Position numbers and translations under genes: made by a program. Shown piece after piece: positions 15,189-36,943 of a DNA stretch of 43,949 nucleotides. Location: positions 1-43,949 of the forward strand of contig CACDOD010000009.1 of the NCBI GenBank assembly GCA_902554335.1, read 5' to 3'. The notes under the pieces are model-generated. The model was not told the DNA's origin. It did not search any database and saw only the letters and a program-made list of their open reading frames with translations. Within the stretch, counting starts at the first letter, position 1. Each line of letters begins with the position of its first letter. Source of the DNA: an uncultured Pelagibacteraceae bacterium. GTDB taxonomy: Bacteria > Pseudomonadota > Alphaproteobacteria > Pelagibacterales > Pelagibacteraceae.

Positions 15189-15965
15189 ATGAAAAAAATT
15201 AAATTAGCAATAACTGGATGTATGGGGAGAATGGGACAACAGATAATAAAATCTGCTAAATCCAATAATAATTTTGCAGTTACTGTTCTTACTGAAAATA
15301 GATTAATTAATAAAAAAATTAATGGAATAAATATTGCCTTAAATGATGAGAAAGCATTTAAAAAAGCCGATGTTATAATTGATTTTACAATTCCTAAATG
15401 CACGTTTGAAGTTTTAAAAATTGCATTAAAATTGAAAAAAAAAGTTGTTATAGGAACAACTGGCTTCACTAAAAAAGAAGAGAATTTAATTAAAAATTAC
15501 TCAAAAAAAATACCTATTTTAAAAGCGGGAAATATGAGCTTGGGTATCAATCTCTTAATGTATTTAACAGAAATTACGTCTGCTTCGCTTGGTAATAACT
15601 ATCTAAGTAAAGTTTTTGAGATACACCATAAACATAAAAAAGATCATCCATCAGGTACCGCCCTAATGTTAGGAAAAGGTATTGCGGTTGGTAAAAACAA
15701 GGATTTTTATAAACTTATGGGAAAAAAGTATTTAAATAAAAAATCTTTTCCATATGGAAAAAAGATTAATTTCAATTCAATAAGAAAAGGCGAAATAATT
15801 GGAAAGCACGAAGTAAAATTCTCTAGTGGTAAAGAAATAATTACTTTAAATCATGAAGCATTTGATAGAGCTCTTTATTCTGAGGGAGCCTTAACAGCCG
15901 CTAAATGGTTAAATAAAAAAAAACCAGGACTTTATTCAATGCGAAATCTTTTGAATTTTAAATAA
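15189..15965 (+). CDS. dapB: 4-hydroxy-tetrahydrodipicolinate reductase
   Basis: NAD(P)H-dependent enzyme of the diaminopimelate/lysine pathway, needed for peptidoglycan. Residues 4-16 give the Rossmann loop ITGCMGRMGQQI; IDFTIP near 62 and GTTGFTKKE near 90 are typical. The catalytic signature EIHHKHKKDHPSGTAL lies at about 147-162, with the catalytic His and the Lys of the family. The length of 258 is normal. It follows dnaJ, a common alphaproteobacterial order, and its stop overlaps the nth start region. Confidence 0.96.
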   Translation: MKKIKLAITGCMGRMGQQIIKSAKSNNNFAVTVLTENRLINKKINGINIALNDEKAFKKADVIIDFTIPKCTFEVLKIALKLKKKVVIGTTGFTKKEENLIKNYSKKIPILKAGNMSLGINLLMYLTEITSASLGNNYLSKVFEIHHKHKKDHPSGTALMLGKGIAVGKNKDFYKLMGKKYLNKKSFPYGKKINFNSIRKGEIIGKHEVKFSSGKEIITLNHEAFDRALYSEGALTAAKWLNKKKPGLYSMRNLLNFK

Positions 15966-16618
15966 TGAATGAAGTTCGAAGAGCAAAAGTTGTTCTAAAA
16001 ATTTTAAATAAGACTTATCCAAAAACTCCAATTCCTCTTAAACACAGGAATATATTTACTTTATTAATATCTGTTCTTTTGTCAGCTCAATGCACTGATG
16101 TAAATGTTAATAACGTAACAAAAGATATTTATCCTAAATATAATAAACCAGAACATTTTGTTAAACTTGGTAGGAAAAAAATTGAGAAATTGATAAGAAG
16201 TATTGGTATCTTCAGAATAAAAGCAAAAAGTGTTTATAATCTATCAAAGACTTTAGTTGAAAAATACAAAGGTAAAGTACCAAAAACTTTTGAACAACTT
16301 GAAGAATTGCCAGGTGTTGGACATAAAACAGCTAGCGTGGTGATGTCTCAGGGTTTTGGTTATCCAGCATTTCCCGTAGATACGCATATTCACAGACTTG
16401 CTCAAAGATGGGGACTTACTAACGGGAAAGACGTAATTCAAACAGAAAAAGATTTAAAACGTTTATTTCCAAAGAGATATTGGAATAAACTTCACCTCCA
16501 AATTATTTATTATGGAAGAGAATTCTGCAAAGCAAGAGAATGTTATGGAATATCTTGTAAAATTTGTACTACTTGTTATCCTAATAGAAAAAAACCCATA
16601 AAAACCAAGAAAGCATAA
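15965..16618 (+). CDS. nth: Endonuclease III (base-excision DNA glycosylase/AP lyase)
   Basis: This enzyme removes oxidised pyrimidines and nicks abasic sites. LLSAQCTD (38-45), the helix-hairpin-helix LPGVGHKTA (115-123) with catalytic Lys 121, and VDTHIHRLAQR with catalytic Asp 139 are all present. The C-terminal cluster loop holds Cys at 188, 193, 198, 201 and 204. Aligned without gaps to E. coli Nth (187, 194, 197, 203), three Cys coincide but the second ligand position is Gly; see the finding. It starts directly at the dapB stop, so the two are translationally linked. Confidence 0.95.
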   Translation: MNEVRRAKVVLKILNKTYPKTPIPLKHRNIFTLLISVLLSAQCTDVNVNNVTKDIYPKYNKPEHFVKLGRKKIEKLIRSIGIFRIKAKSVYNLSKTLVEKYKGKVPKTFEQLEELPGVGHKTASVVMSQGFGYPAFPVDTHIHRLAQRWGLTNGKDVIQTEKDLKRLFPKRYWNKLHLQIIYYGREFCKARECYGISCKICTTCYPNRKKPIKTKKA

Positions 16619-33858: not shown

Positions 33859-34853
33859 TATGTAATATTTTTATTTATAAGATGTTCTAGAAGATTAATG
33901 TGATCTTCGTTATCATTAAGACATGGAATAAATTCAAATTTTTCTCCACCAGATTTTTCAAAACTTTCTTTTCCCTGTATTGATATTTCTTCTAGGGTTT
34001 CTACACAATCAGATGCAAATCCTGGAGATATAACTAATATTTTTTTGATACCCTCTGCAGGCAATGTTTCGAGTGTCTTATCTGTATAAGGTTGAAGCCA
34101 TTCTTGAGGTCCAAATCGTGATTGAAAAGTTGTTATAATTTTTACTTGTTTGAACTTTTCAGAGATCAGCCTTGTGGTTTTTTGACAGTAACAGTGGTAT
34201 GGATCTCCTTTTTCAAAATATTTTTTTGGTATCCCATGATAAGATGCTACGATAAGATCTGGTTCCCAATTAATCTCTTTTATTTTCTTATTTATGCTTT
34301 TTACAAGGGCATCAATATAAAGCGGTTCGGACTCATAGTGCGGTATTATTTGTATTGCTGGTTGCCATCTCATTTTCATTAAAACTCTATAAACCTCGTC
34401 ACAAACAGTGGCTGTTGTCGGTGAAGCATACTGTGGATATAAAGGAAAAATAATAAGTTTTTCACAGCCCTTGTTATGCATTTGCTCGATCTTGCTTTTG
34501 ATACTCGGATTTCCATACCTCATCGCAAAATCAACAAGTAAATTATTGTTTGCTATTCTCTGACTAATTTTTTGTGCTTGCATCTCTGTATAAAACCTTA
34601 AAGGTGATTTATTTAAGTCTTTCATCCATATTTCTTTGTAGGCTTTTGCTGTTTTGGATGGCCTAAAAGTTAATATAAATAAATTTAGTATTATTTGCCA
34701 AAGAAAAGGGTTAACTTCGATTACTCTATTGTCAGATAAAAATTCTTTAAGATATTTTCGTATGTCCCACCAATTTGTAGAATCTGGTGTACCTAAGTTA
34801 ATCAACAAAACTCCAGTTTTTCCGTACTTAATTTGTGGATGATCTTTGTTCAT
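33858..34853 (-). CDS. hemH: Ferrochelatase
   Basis: Inserts ferrous iron into protoporphyrin IX in the last step of heme synthesis. GVLLINLGTPDSTNWWDIRKYLKEFLSD near the N-terminus, VDFAMRYGNPSIKS near 98, the iron-ligand His in VASYHGIPKKYFEKGDPY (about 200) and QSRFGPQEWLQPYTDKTLE near 245 are family hallmarks. The length of 331 is normal. It overlaps the hemE stop by 4 bases. Confidence 0.97.
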   Translation of the reverse strand: MNKDHPQIKYGKTGVLLINLGTPDSTNWWDIRKYLKEFLSDNRVIEVNPFLWQIILNLFILTFRPSKTAKAYKEIWMKDLNKSPLRFYTEMQAQKISQRIANNNLLVDFAMRYGNPSIKSKIEQMHNKGCEKLIIFPLYPQYASPTTATVCDEVYRVLMKMRWQPAIQIIPHYESEPLYIDALVKSINKKIKEINWEPDLIVASYHGIPKKYFEKGDPYHCYCQKTTRLISEKFKQVKIITTFQSRFGPQEWLQPYTDKTLETLPAEGIKKILVISPGFASDCVETLEEISIQGKESFEKSGGEKFEFIPCLNDNEDHINLLEHLINKNIT

Positions 34854-35848
34854 CTAAAGTCTTTTACAAAATTAACTAAGATCTTAACATTTTCTGGATT
34901 GGTTTCCGGTATCATTCCATGTCCAAGATTAAATATATAGTTGTGATCTTTAAATACATCTAGATATTTTTTTGCATTTTTTAACATCTCGTCTTTATCT
35001 AGTAATAAACATTTTGGATCCATTCCTCCTTGAACAGGAATCTTTATATCTTTTGCAATTTTAAATGGATCTACTTCATAATCAATATTAATTGCGCTTG
35101 GTTTAACTATGTCACAGTATTTTTTGTATGACTTTATTCCTCTAGGAAAACAAATTACCTCTACCCCTAAATTTTTTGTATACTCAACTAATTCTTTTGT
35201 GGTCCTATAAATATATTTTTCTAACTGATCTTCTGATGCAAGCCCAGCCCAACTGTCAAAAATTTGAATTATACTAGCTCCGTTTAAAACTTGATTTTTA
35301 ATATGTAGTTTTTGGCAATGAATAATCTTTTCTATTATTTGGTCTATTTTTGGATTTGTGTATATTCCATTATTTATTTTTTTTGGTGATTGGCGGTTTA
35401 ACATGTAAACCAACAAAGTCCATGTTGCCCCTATAAAACCTATTAAATCTTTATTTTTCATTATTTTATCATTAGAAACTAATTTTATTAAATCATAAAT
35501 AGGTTTTAATTTTTCTAATATTTCATCATCACTAATATTTGAAATTTTATCAAAATCTAGTTTACCAAGTTTGGGTCCTAAACCTTTTTCAAATACAACA
35601 TCCTGTCCAAGAGAATATGGGACAAGTAAAATATCTGAGAAAATTATTGCAGCATCAATCTGAAATCTTCTTAAAGGTTGAATAGTAATTTCTTTTGATA
35701 AAGTTGGGTTGAGACATAATTCTATAAAATTACTATTTTCAGACCTAATTTTTCTAAATTCAGGTAAATATCTACCCGCTTGTCTCATAAACCATATAGG
35801 AATACTACTTGTCACTTTTTTATTAATACATTCCTTTAATATTCCCAT
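34850..35848 (-). CDS. hemE: Uroporphyrinogen decarboxylase
   Basis: Decarboxylates the four acetate chains of uroporphyrinogen III to give coproporphyrinogen III. PIWFMRQAGRYLPEFRKIR at about 18-36 is the signature with the catalytic Arg pair; AAIIFSDILLVPYSLG near 68 holds the conserved catalytic Asp. GFIGATWTLLVYML and QIFDSWAGLAS are also typical. The length of 332 is normal. The start borders the 270-base candidate origin, as in Caulobacter. Confidence 0.97.
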   Translation of the reverse strand: MGILKECINKKVTSSIPIWFMRQAGRYLPEFRKIRSENSNFIELCLNPTLSKEITIQPLRRFQIDAAIIFSDILLVPYSLGQDVVFEKGLGPKLGKLDFDKISNISDDEILEKLKPIYDLIKLVSNDKIMKNKDLIGFIGATWTLLVYMLNRQSPKKINNGIYTNPKIDQIIEKIIHCQKLHIKNQVLNGASIIQIFDSWAGLASEDQLEKYIYRTTKELVEYTKNLGVEVICFPRGIKSYKKYCDIVKPSAINIDYEVDPFKIAKDIKIPVQGGMDPKCLLLDKDEMLKNAKKYLDVFKDHNYIFNLGHGMIPETNPENVKILVNFVKDFR

Positions 35849-36118
35849 AATAAAATTATAATATATTTCATTATTTTATATTATTATCCTGTGAAATAGT
35901 TTAATTAAATTTCATACACACTTTTCCACATTTTTAATAACAAAAAAAATGCTCCAAATTAGGATATTTACTAACTTTTATTTAAAATTAACAATTATAA
36001 CAAATATTAATATATTTTTTTCACTTGTTTAAATGTGTTAATAACTGCTTATAAAATATAACATTTTTAAAAGTTTAATATTTAGGAATGAATTTATTTA
36101 ATTAGCTTAAATTTATAC
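35849..36118. other. Candidate replication origin (oriC) between hemE and the DUF299 gene
   Basis: This 270-base, extremely AT-rich stretch is the longest gene-free gap in the window. It holds one good DnaA-box-like 9-mer, TTTTCCACA at 35932-35940 (one mismatch from TTATCCACA). Gene direction flips outward at this point: hemE-hemH-hemJ-rho to the left, the DUF299 gene-maf-aroE-coaE-dnaQ to the right. The same order flanks the mapped Caulobacter origin. I found no clear cluster of DnaA boxes and no TTAA-N7-TTAA CtrA sites, so origin function is inferred mainly from synteny. Both divergent promoters must also lie here. Confidence 0.5.
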
Positions 36119-36943
36119 ATGAAAAATACATACAACATATATTTAATTTCCGACTCCACTGGCGAAACTCTTGATAGAATTTTTATGGCTCTTAAAGCTC
36201 AATTTGAAAATTTTGAACATAACTTATTTCACTTTTCGTTTACAAGAACAGAAAACCAACTACTTCAAATCCTTGAAGATGCTAGAAAAAAAAATAGTGC
36301 AATAATATTATATACTATAGTAGATAACAAACTTGCAAAATTTTTATCTCAAGAAGCAAATAAAAAAAATATTCCTTGTTTTGGAGTTCTTGGAGATTTA
36401 ATACTAAATTTTTCAAAACTACTTAATCAAGAGGCTACAAACATTCCAAGTGGCCAACACGCGCTCAATGAAGAATATTACAAACGAATAGAAGCAATTC
36501 AATTTACAATGAATCATGATGATGGTAATTCAATGACTGACATAGAGAAGTCTGATATAGTTCTATTGGGCGTAAGTAGGACAAGTAAAACTCCAACCTC
36601 AATATATTTGGCGAACCGAGGATACAAGACGTCGAATATTCCGCTAGTAAACGAAAATTCTATACCAGACAAACTTACGAAAGATCCAAATATTACATGT
36701 ATTATAGGCTTAACCGCTGAAGCAAATAGATTATATGATGTTAGAAAAAATAGACTTAACACAATTAAAGAGAATGAAAATACTAATTATGTAAAGCTAG
36801 ACTCTATTCAAAATGAATTAGATTTTTCAAAAAAAGCATTTCAAAAATATCAATGGCCAATAATTGACGTTACAAGAAAATCTGTTGAAGAAACTGCGGC
36901 CTCAGTTATAAAAATCCATGAAATATATTCAAATAAAAAATGA
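36119..36943 (+). CDS. Pyruvate, water dikinase/PPDK regulatory protein (DUF299 kinase-pyrophosphorylase)
   Basis: The 274-residue protein begins NIYLISDSTGETLDRIFMALKAQFENF and carries the P-loop-like GVSRTSKTPTSIYLANRGYKTSNIPLV near 152-178, the hallmark of DUF299 proteins (PpsR/PDRP). These are bifunctional Ser/Thr kinase and phosphate-dependent pyrophosphorylases controlling PEP synthase or pyruvate phosphate dikinase; which target applies cannot be read from here. It is the first rightward gene after the candidate origin. Its stop overlaps the maf start by 4 bases. Confidence 0.93.
   Translation: MKNTYNIYLISDSTGETLDRIFMALKAQFENFEHNLFHFSFTRTENQLLQILEDARKKNSAIILYTIVDNKLAKFLSQEANKKNIPCFGVLGDLILNFSKLLNQEATNIPSGQHALNEEYYKRIEAIQFTMNHDDGNSMTDIEKSDIVLLGVSRTSKTPTSIYLANRGYKTSNIPLVNENSIPDKLTKDPNITCIIGLTAEANRLYDVRKNRLNTIKENENTNYVKLDSIQNELDFSKKAFQKYQWPIIDVTRKSVEETAASVIKIHEIYSNKK

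Follow-up and report, generated by a model that had tools for sequence, protein, structure and literature searches.

Where chromosomal replication begins in SAR11, one of the ocean's most abundant bacterial groups, is the question raised by the intergenic gap analyzed here. The gap lies in a 43,949-nucleotide stretch of DNA (the window, analyzed at its full length) from a genome of 919.7 kb in 46 contigs that is 70% complete; the named relatives found with the PpsR protein of the window are Pelagibacteraceae, of the SAR11 group. Growth estimates from metagenome coverage need the position of the origin, and a located origin with mapped elements would anchor them. An "ori region" in Pelagibacter is mentioned in PMC9516812. 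The accessible portions of the open literature (PMC2031905, PMC2099444, PMC9589681, PMC3973325, PMC9516812, and PMC7858055) hold no described SAR11 oriC sequence, and a DoriC prediction is quite possible.

The putative oriC is the 270-bp gap between hemE and ppsR (35849-36118), which is 85% AT versus about 65-77% in the 2-kb bins of the window. Its left boundary is hemE (uroporphyrinogen decarboxylase; 34850-35848, minus strand; PF01208, E 4.3e-82), the start of which also adjoins the gap in the relatives according to tblastn. The right boundary is formed by ppsR, a DUF299 (Kinase-PPPase) gene on the plus strand (36119-36943; PF03618, E 7.7e-89), downstream of which Pfam identified maf, aroE, coaE, an RNase_T exonuclease (dnaQ-like), and secB. 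The original prediction had placed a candidate origin here by its resemblance to the Caulobacter gene order, by the flip of gene direction, and by the length of the gap. The Pfam calls and the strands of hemE and ppsR confirm the first two, and the gap is indeed the longest, the next ones between open reading frames of the window measuring 213 and 98 bp. The Caulobacter crescentus Cori and the Rickettsia origins are of the hemE/COG1806 type (PMC1914354), and a site between hemE and COG1806/DUF299, as in this type, is present in the window and in 107 other gaps. These known origins resemble the gap of the window in boundary genes, gene order, AT-richness, and the presence of DnaA boxes. Cori, however, carries five DnaA boxes, five CtrA sites, and an IHF site, whereas the gap of the window has no CtrA site and no exact IHF site, and three Rickettsia origins listed there are 383-395 bp long compared with 270 bp here (PMC1914354). 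No match came from searching the window against Rfam (gathering threshold) or for tRNAs. Judging from its position, its conserved architecture, and the enrichment of boxes and trios, we consider it highly likely that the gap is the chromosomal origin of this SAR11 bacterium. It is very probably an alphaproteobacterial origin of the known hemE type, in a version that is compact and CtrA-free and has degenerate boxes.

Homologous gaps in the relatives enabled us to examine which elements are conserved. A search of 61 genomes recovered the PpsR protein in 31, all of them among the 37 genomes of the window's own family; none of 24 genomes of a sister family had it. The gap set was drawn from 30 of those loci and 80 named loci; of these 110 ppsR loci (L002-L111), L049 and L091 were left out because no hemE start was matched, and L002 duplicates the window. 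The resulting set holds 108 gaps including that of the window, 105 of them distinct, all with a length of 261-289 bp and with hemE on the opposite strand. Exact TTATNMACA sites occur 2.92 times per gap versus 0.18 in dinucleotide shuffles, and sites with at most one mismatch to TTATNCACA occur 4.53 times versus 0.86, although these comparisons give no independent probabilities since the gaps are related to each other. The exact count ranges from 1 to 6 per gap, the window having 1. Of 328 TTATN?ACA sites in the own family, 315 have A or C at position 6, although A and C together account for less than half of the bases. The boxes thus read as TTATNMACA, so that a search with the E. coli consensus sees few of them. 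As a control, we used the 210 bp upstream of the orthologs of window gene 21099 at 17 loci, where a divergent neighbour was seen in the window only. This stretch contains 0.29 exact TTATNMACA sites versus 0.10 in shuffles and 0.82 sites with at most one mismatch to TTATNCACA versus 0.51, well under the values of the gaps.

In the 10-member clade of the window, 102 of 277 alignment columns are invariant, and these fall largely in motif blocks. Reading away from hemE, an AT-rich stretch passes into repeats such as TAGTATTAT, which a short spacer separates from the anchor box; 2-3 boxes on the plus strand follow. The conserved right-hand block, which ends with TGTTAATAA, stands between two variable stretches, the second of which borders ppsR. 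The GANTC motif, for which methylation in SAR11 has been reported (PMC9516812), is rare in the window (62 versus 115 expected from base composition) and in the gaps (4 in 29,704 bases versus about 35 expected from composition by hand calculation).

Only one near-consensus DnaA box, TTTTCCACA, had been predicted in the gap of the window, at 35932-35940. This site actually lies at 35922-35930 on the plus strand, has one mismatch to TTATNCACA, is largely kept in the 10-member clade, and turns out to be one of three sites within one mismatch of TTATNCACA. The other two are TCATACACA (35912-35920, plus strand, one mismatch) and TTATTAACA (36036-36044, minus strand; TGTTAATAA on the plus strand). 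The latter is invariant in the 10-member clade and is the sole exact TTATNMACA site in the window's gap; TGTTAATAA is present in 72 of the 108 gaps. Two weaker box-like sites are located on the plus strand, TTAATAACA at 35934-35942, where several relatives have TTATTAACA, and TTTTTCACT at 36017-36025, with two mismatches, in the conserved right-hand block. When the gap is shuffled, 0.57 sites with at most one mismatch to TTATNCACA occur on average, and three or more turn up with a frequency of 0.022. Over the whole window there is no excess of such sites (62 versus 70.1 in shuffles), and the densest 270-bp cluster, starting at 16015, holds four of them versus three in the gap. Given these two results, box counts in the window sequence fail to identify an origin, whereas the comparison with relatives does so; counting in the window alone was rejected as an origin finder as it does not single out the gap. 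The clustering of DnaA boxes in the gap is strong across the relatives and weak in the window alone. The four-site cluster (16015-16285) falls inside an open reading frame at 15965-16618.

The hemE side of the gap harbors a candidate AT-rich unwinding region of low duplex stability (35849-35878). The 50-mer at 35849-35898 ranks 107th among 43,899 such segments for low duplex stability, although stability alone cannot single out this region since an equally weak stretch is found at 35969-36018. Adjacent to the candidate region lies a DnaA-trio-like array, TAT-TAT-TAT (3'-TAT-5' units; 35879-35887, plus strand), followed by the spacer CC and a putative anchor DnaA box, TATTTCACA (35890-35898, minus strand; TGTGAAATA on the plus strand), which adjoins the trios. 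The stretch TATATTATTA at the array is invariant in the 10-member clade, and trio-like repeats read TAGTATTAT in other relatives and TAGTAGTAGTAG in two gaps of the sister family. The commonest forms of the anchor box in the relatives are TGTGAATAA and TGTGAATTA, and the anchor box of the window has two mismatches to TTATNCACA and three to TTATCCACA.

This arrangement resembles the basal origin unwinding system (BUS; DnaA box, spacer, and DnaA-trios) of Bacillus subtilis and other bacteria (PMC6669920, PMC8287927) in the order of unwinding region, trios, short spacer, DnaA box, and further boxes. It differs in that the trios of the BUS are 3'-GAT-5' whereas those of the window are 3'-TAT-5'. 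According to the published rule, at least three trios lie within 16 bp of a DnaA box with at most two mismatches to TTATCCACA (PMC8287927). Under our test, which used a fixed box orientation and the hemE-side 120 bases only and thereby differs from the published program, the window has three trios, a spacer of 2, and a box with three mismatches, one over the single-box limit of two; the 9 named relatives closest to it have boxes with 1-2 mismatches and pass. With TAG units and the TGTGAATAA box, the relatives are nearer to the BUS than the window is.

The enrichment of trios depends on how strictly they are defined. At least three TAN units with a box of at most two mismatches to TGTGGATAA are found in 57 of 108 gaps versus 1.9 in mononucleotide shuffles, and TAN runs of at least three units before TGT in 72 of 108 versus 5.6; the strict TAN rule is failed by 9 of 11 gaps of the sister family. 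A loose NAN-trio rule with TTATNCACA is passed by 96 of 108 gaps versus 58.3 when shuffled, a weak contrast owing to the AT-rich DNA. Runs of at least three T[AT]G units are strictly one-sided: in the first 140 bases of the 108 gaps, 17 have such runs on the plus strand and none on the minus strand, and the sister family (9 of 11 gaps on the plus strand) and the wider class (5 of 23) likewise have none on the minus strand. The class sample comprised 29 ppsR loci besides the window's own locus, with a divergent hemE beside ppsR in 23, and 13 of these 23 gaps lack even a run of two T[AT]G units in the first 200 bases. In several GC-richer Alphaproteobacteria, T[AT]G runs stand directly before a TGTG box, and one gap of the class, L238, has the sequence TAGTAGTTGTTTATCCCTGTGAATAAC, which comes near the SAR11 layout. 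The core of trios and anchor box can be discerned in some other Alphaproteobacteria as well, with T[AT]G runs in 5 of 23 class gaps. The R1 box of E. coli has the same orientation. The control stretch contains no T[AT]G run of three in its 17 genomes.

These elements suggest how the origin may work. DnaA would bind the weak anchor box at 35890-35898 and also the further weak boxes at 35912-35942 and 36017-36044. A DnaA filament would then grow from the anchor box onto the trio-like array at 35879-35887, toward the AT-rich hemE side, where the duplex is predicted to open before the helicase is loaded. A variant of this explanation, compatible with the gap being the origin, is that opening proceeds without trios and that the TAT/TAG runs merely reflect AT-richness. 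Many AT-rich gaps pass the loosest trio rule even after shuffling, and TA[AGT] runs are less one-sided, occurring on the plus strand in 75 of 108 gaps and on the minus strand in 43, compared with 39.8 in the shuffles. However, the T[AT]G runs of three are confined to one strand in all three groups (31 on the plus strand and none on the minus strand in 142 gaps), and their place directly before the TGTG box in GC-richer genomes also speaks for trios, so we regard opening without them as rather unlikely.

Two other explanations would deny the gap its role as the origin. One is that it serves only as a bidirectional promoter for hemE and ppsR, its motifs being transcription signals. Divergent genes do require promoters, and a TTATAC directly before ppsR is invariant in the clade of the window. 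The sister family bears on this explanation. Kinase-PPPase was not found in any of 12 sister-family genomes, each at least 90% complete (G037-G048), while hemE was found in 11 of them, with no hemE match in G040. The 11 sister gaps (loci L174-L184) correspond to 13 hemE loci minus those of G000 and G012. In all 11 loci read, maf follows hemE across about 268-284 bp, lengths that are approximate since the right end was extrapolated from the maf match and is mostly not a start codon. These gaps resemble that of the window in lying beside hemE, in their similar length, and in carrying trios and boxes (1.55 exact TTATNMACA sites per gap versus 0.10 shuffled). They differ in having no ppsR and in the clear GAT-type trios TAGTAGTAGTAG of L175 and L178. 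A gap kept in a family without ppsR separates the origin function from the ppsR neighbour, and it argues against the promoter explanation that boxes, a similar length, and, in 9 of 11 gaps, trios are retained there, although maf in that family needs a promoter too. The few boxes and the missing T[AT]G runs of three in the control stretch tell against it as well, and we judge a pure promoter to be extremely improbable.

The other explanation makes the hemE gap an ancestral relic and moves the origin to another site, the likeliest being next to dnaA, where many other bacteria have it. The 270 bp upstream of dnaA were read at 28 of 31 dnaA loci (12 and 16 genomes), since at the remaining loci either a start codon could not be identified or the upstream sequence was shorter than 270 bp. 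They contain no exact TTATNMACA site in any of the 28 genomes (0.00 per stretch) and no T[AT]G run of three; in the sister family there is a mild excess of sites with at most one mismatch to TTATNCACA (1.00 versus 0.38 shuffled), well under the gaps. GC skew over the window was rejected as a guide, being local and varying with gene direction. In the closed relative G012, in which ppsR lies at 1,262,210 and dnaA at 1,198,936, skew was computed from 40 evenly spaced 10-kb samples (400 kb, of which 20 kb were sampled twice). The best fit puts the origin at 1.18-1.20 Mb and the terminus at 0.66 Mb, with 1.6% of permutations reaching this contrast. This range takes in dnaA and not the gap. A skew minimum at another site had been proposed as evidence against the gap; in this coarse check the best fit falls 62-82 kb from the gap, nearer to dnaA, at a resolution that cannot separate the two. 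Among the bootstraps, 46% lie within 100 kb of the gap and 64% within that distance of dnaA; 546 of 2000 put the origin at 0.1-0.2 Mb, and the second-best fit of GC plus AT skew is at 0.14-0.16 Mb. The coarse skew of G012 points only to the hemE/dnaA part of the chromosome and, considered by itself, slightly favours dnaA. Within the 400 kb sampled, two of four box patterns have their densest 270-bp cluster at the gap; one pattern ties it with three other places, and one looser pattern peaks at 671828. Published read coverage of SAR11 follows a single V (PMC9589681). If the gap were a relic, the preservation of boxes, trios, and length across the 108 gaps of these streamlined genomes would be unexpected, and together with the bare dnaA upstream regions this makes an origin elsewhere very improbable. 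The original prediction had left open whether the origin is minimal with degenerate boxes or lies elsewhere. The former is supported by the conserved boxes and trios of the 108 gaps, by the bare dnaA upstream regions, and by the gap kept in the sister family.

The hemE-type origin of the window differs most from that of Caulobacter in its regulation sites. As predicted, the gap contains no exact TTAA-N7-TTAA; 10 such sites occur elsewhere in the window, compared with 13.4 in shuffles. The motif is present in 37 of the 108 own-family gaps versus 24 in mononucleotide shuffles and in none of 11 sister gaps, values that make no strong case for CtrA sites. The IHF consensus WATCAANNNNTTR is absent from the gap in an exact-match search. 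No CtrA ortholog was found in 13 of 13 Pelagibacterales genomes, the best match having 33% identity and an E value of about 1e-28. Among 41 control genomes of the class, 28 have a match of 49-84% identity and 4 have only one of 38-41%, these 32 lying below E 1e-40. The other 9, the window's own genome included, have no match at E 1e-40, so the failure to find CtrA is not unique to Pelagibacterales. The lack of a ctrA ortholog in Pelagibacter has been reported before (PMC2877005), and hemE-bounded origins without CtrA sites are listed in PMC1914354, which means that CtrA sites are not obligatory. The missing CtrA sites fit the absence of a CtrA ortholog, and the gap would show what remains of a Caulobacter-type origin once CtrA is absent. 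It is conceivable, though we hold this only tentatively, that the Pelagibacterales origin is unusually reduced, with about 270 bp, no CtrA control, and TTATNMACA boxes that are perhaps individually weak, its timing being set by the DnaA level and by cooperativity over the core of trios and anchor box.

Domain IV of DnaA aligns with that of E. coli (1j1v, E 5e-23), and the RDHTT core is intact in all 31 DnaA loci read; covariation of domain IV with the drift of the boxes was accordingly rejected for this core. Beside the DNA-contact signature, DnaA differs between the families, reading FSNRDHTT(V/I)IHS in the own family (L001 and others) and FGGRDHTTVIHA in the sister family; the own family has SN in place of GG ahead of RDHTT and S in place of A following IH. 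No link between these residues and the box drift is claimed, since the ratio of A to C at box position 6 is similar in both families (250 : 65 in the own family and 13 : 4 in the sister family). G037, G038, G042, and other sister-family genomes also have a weak second match to the DnaA domain, located in an open frame of about 355-366 amino acids.
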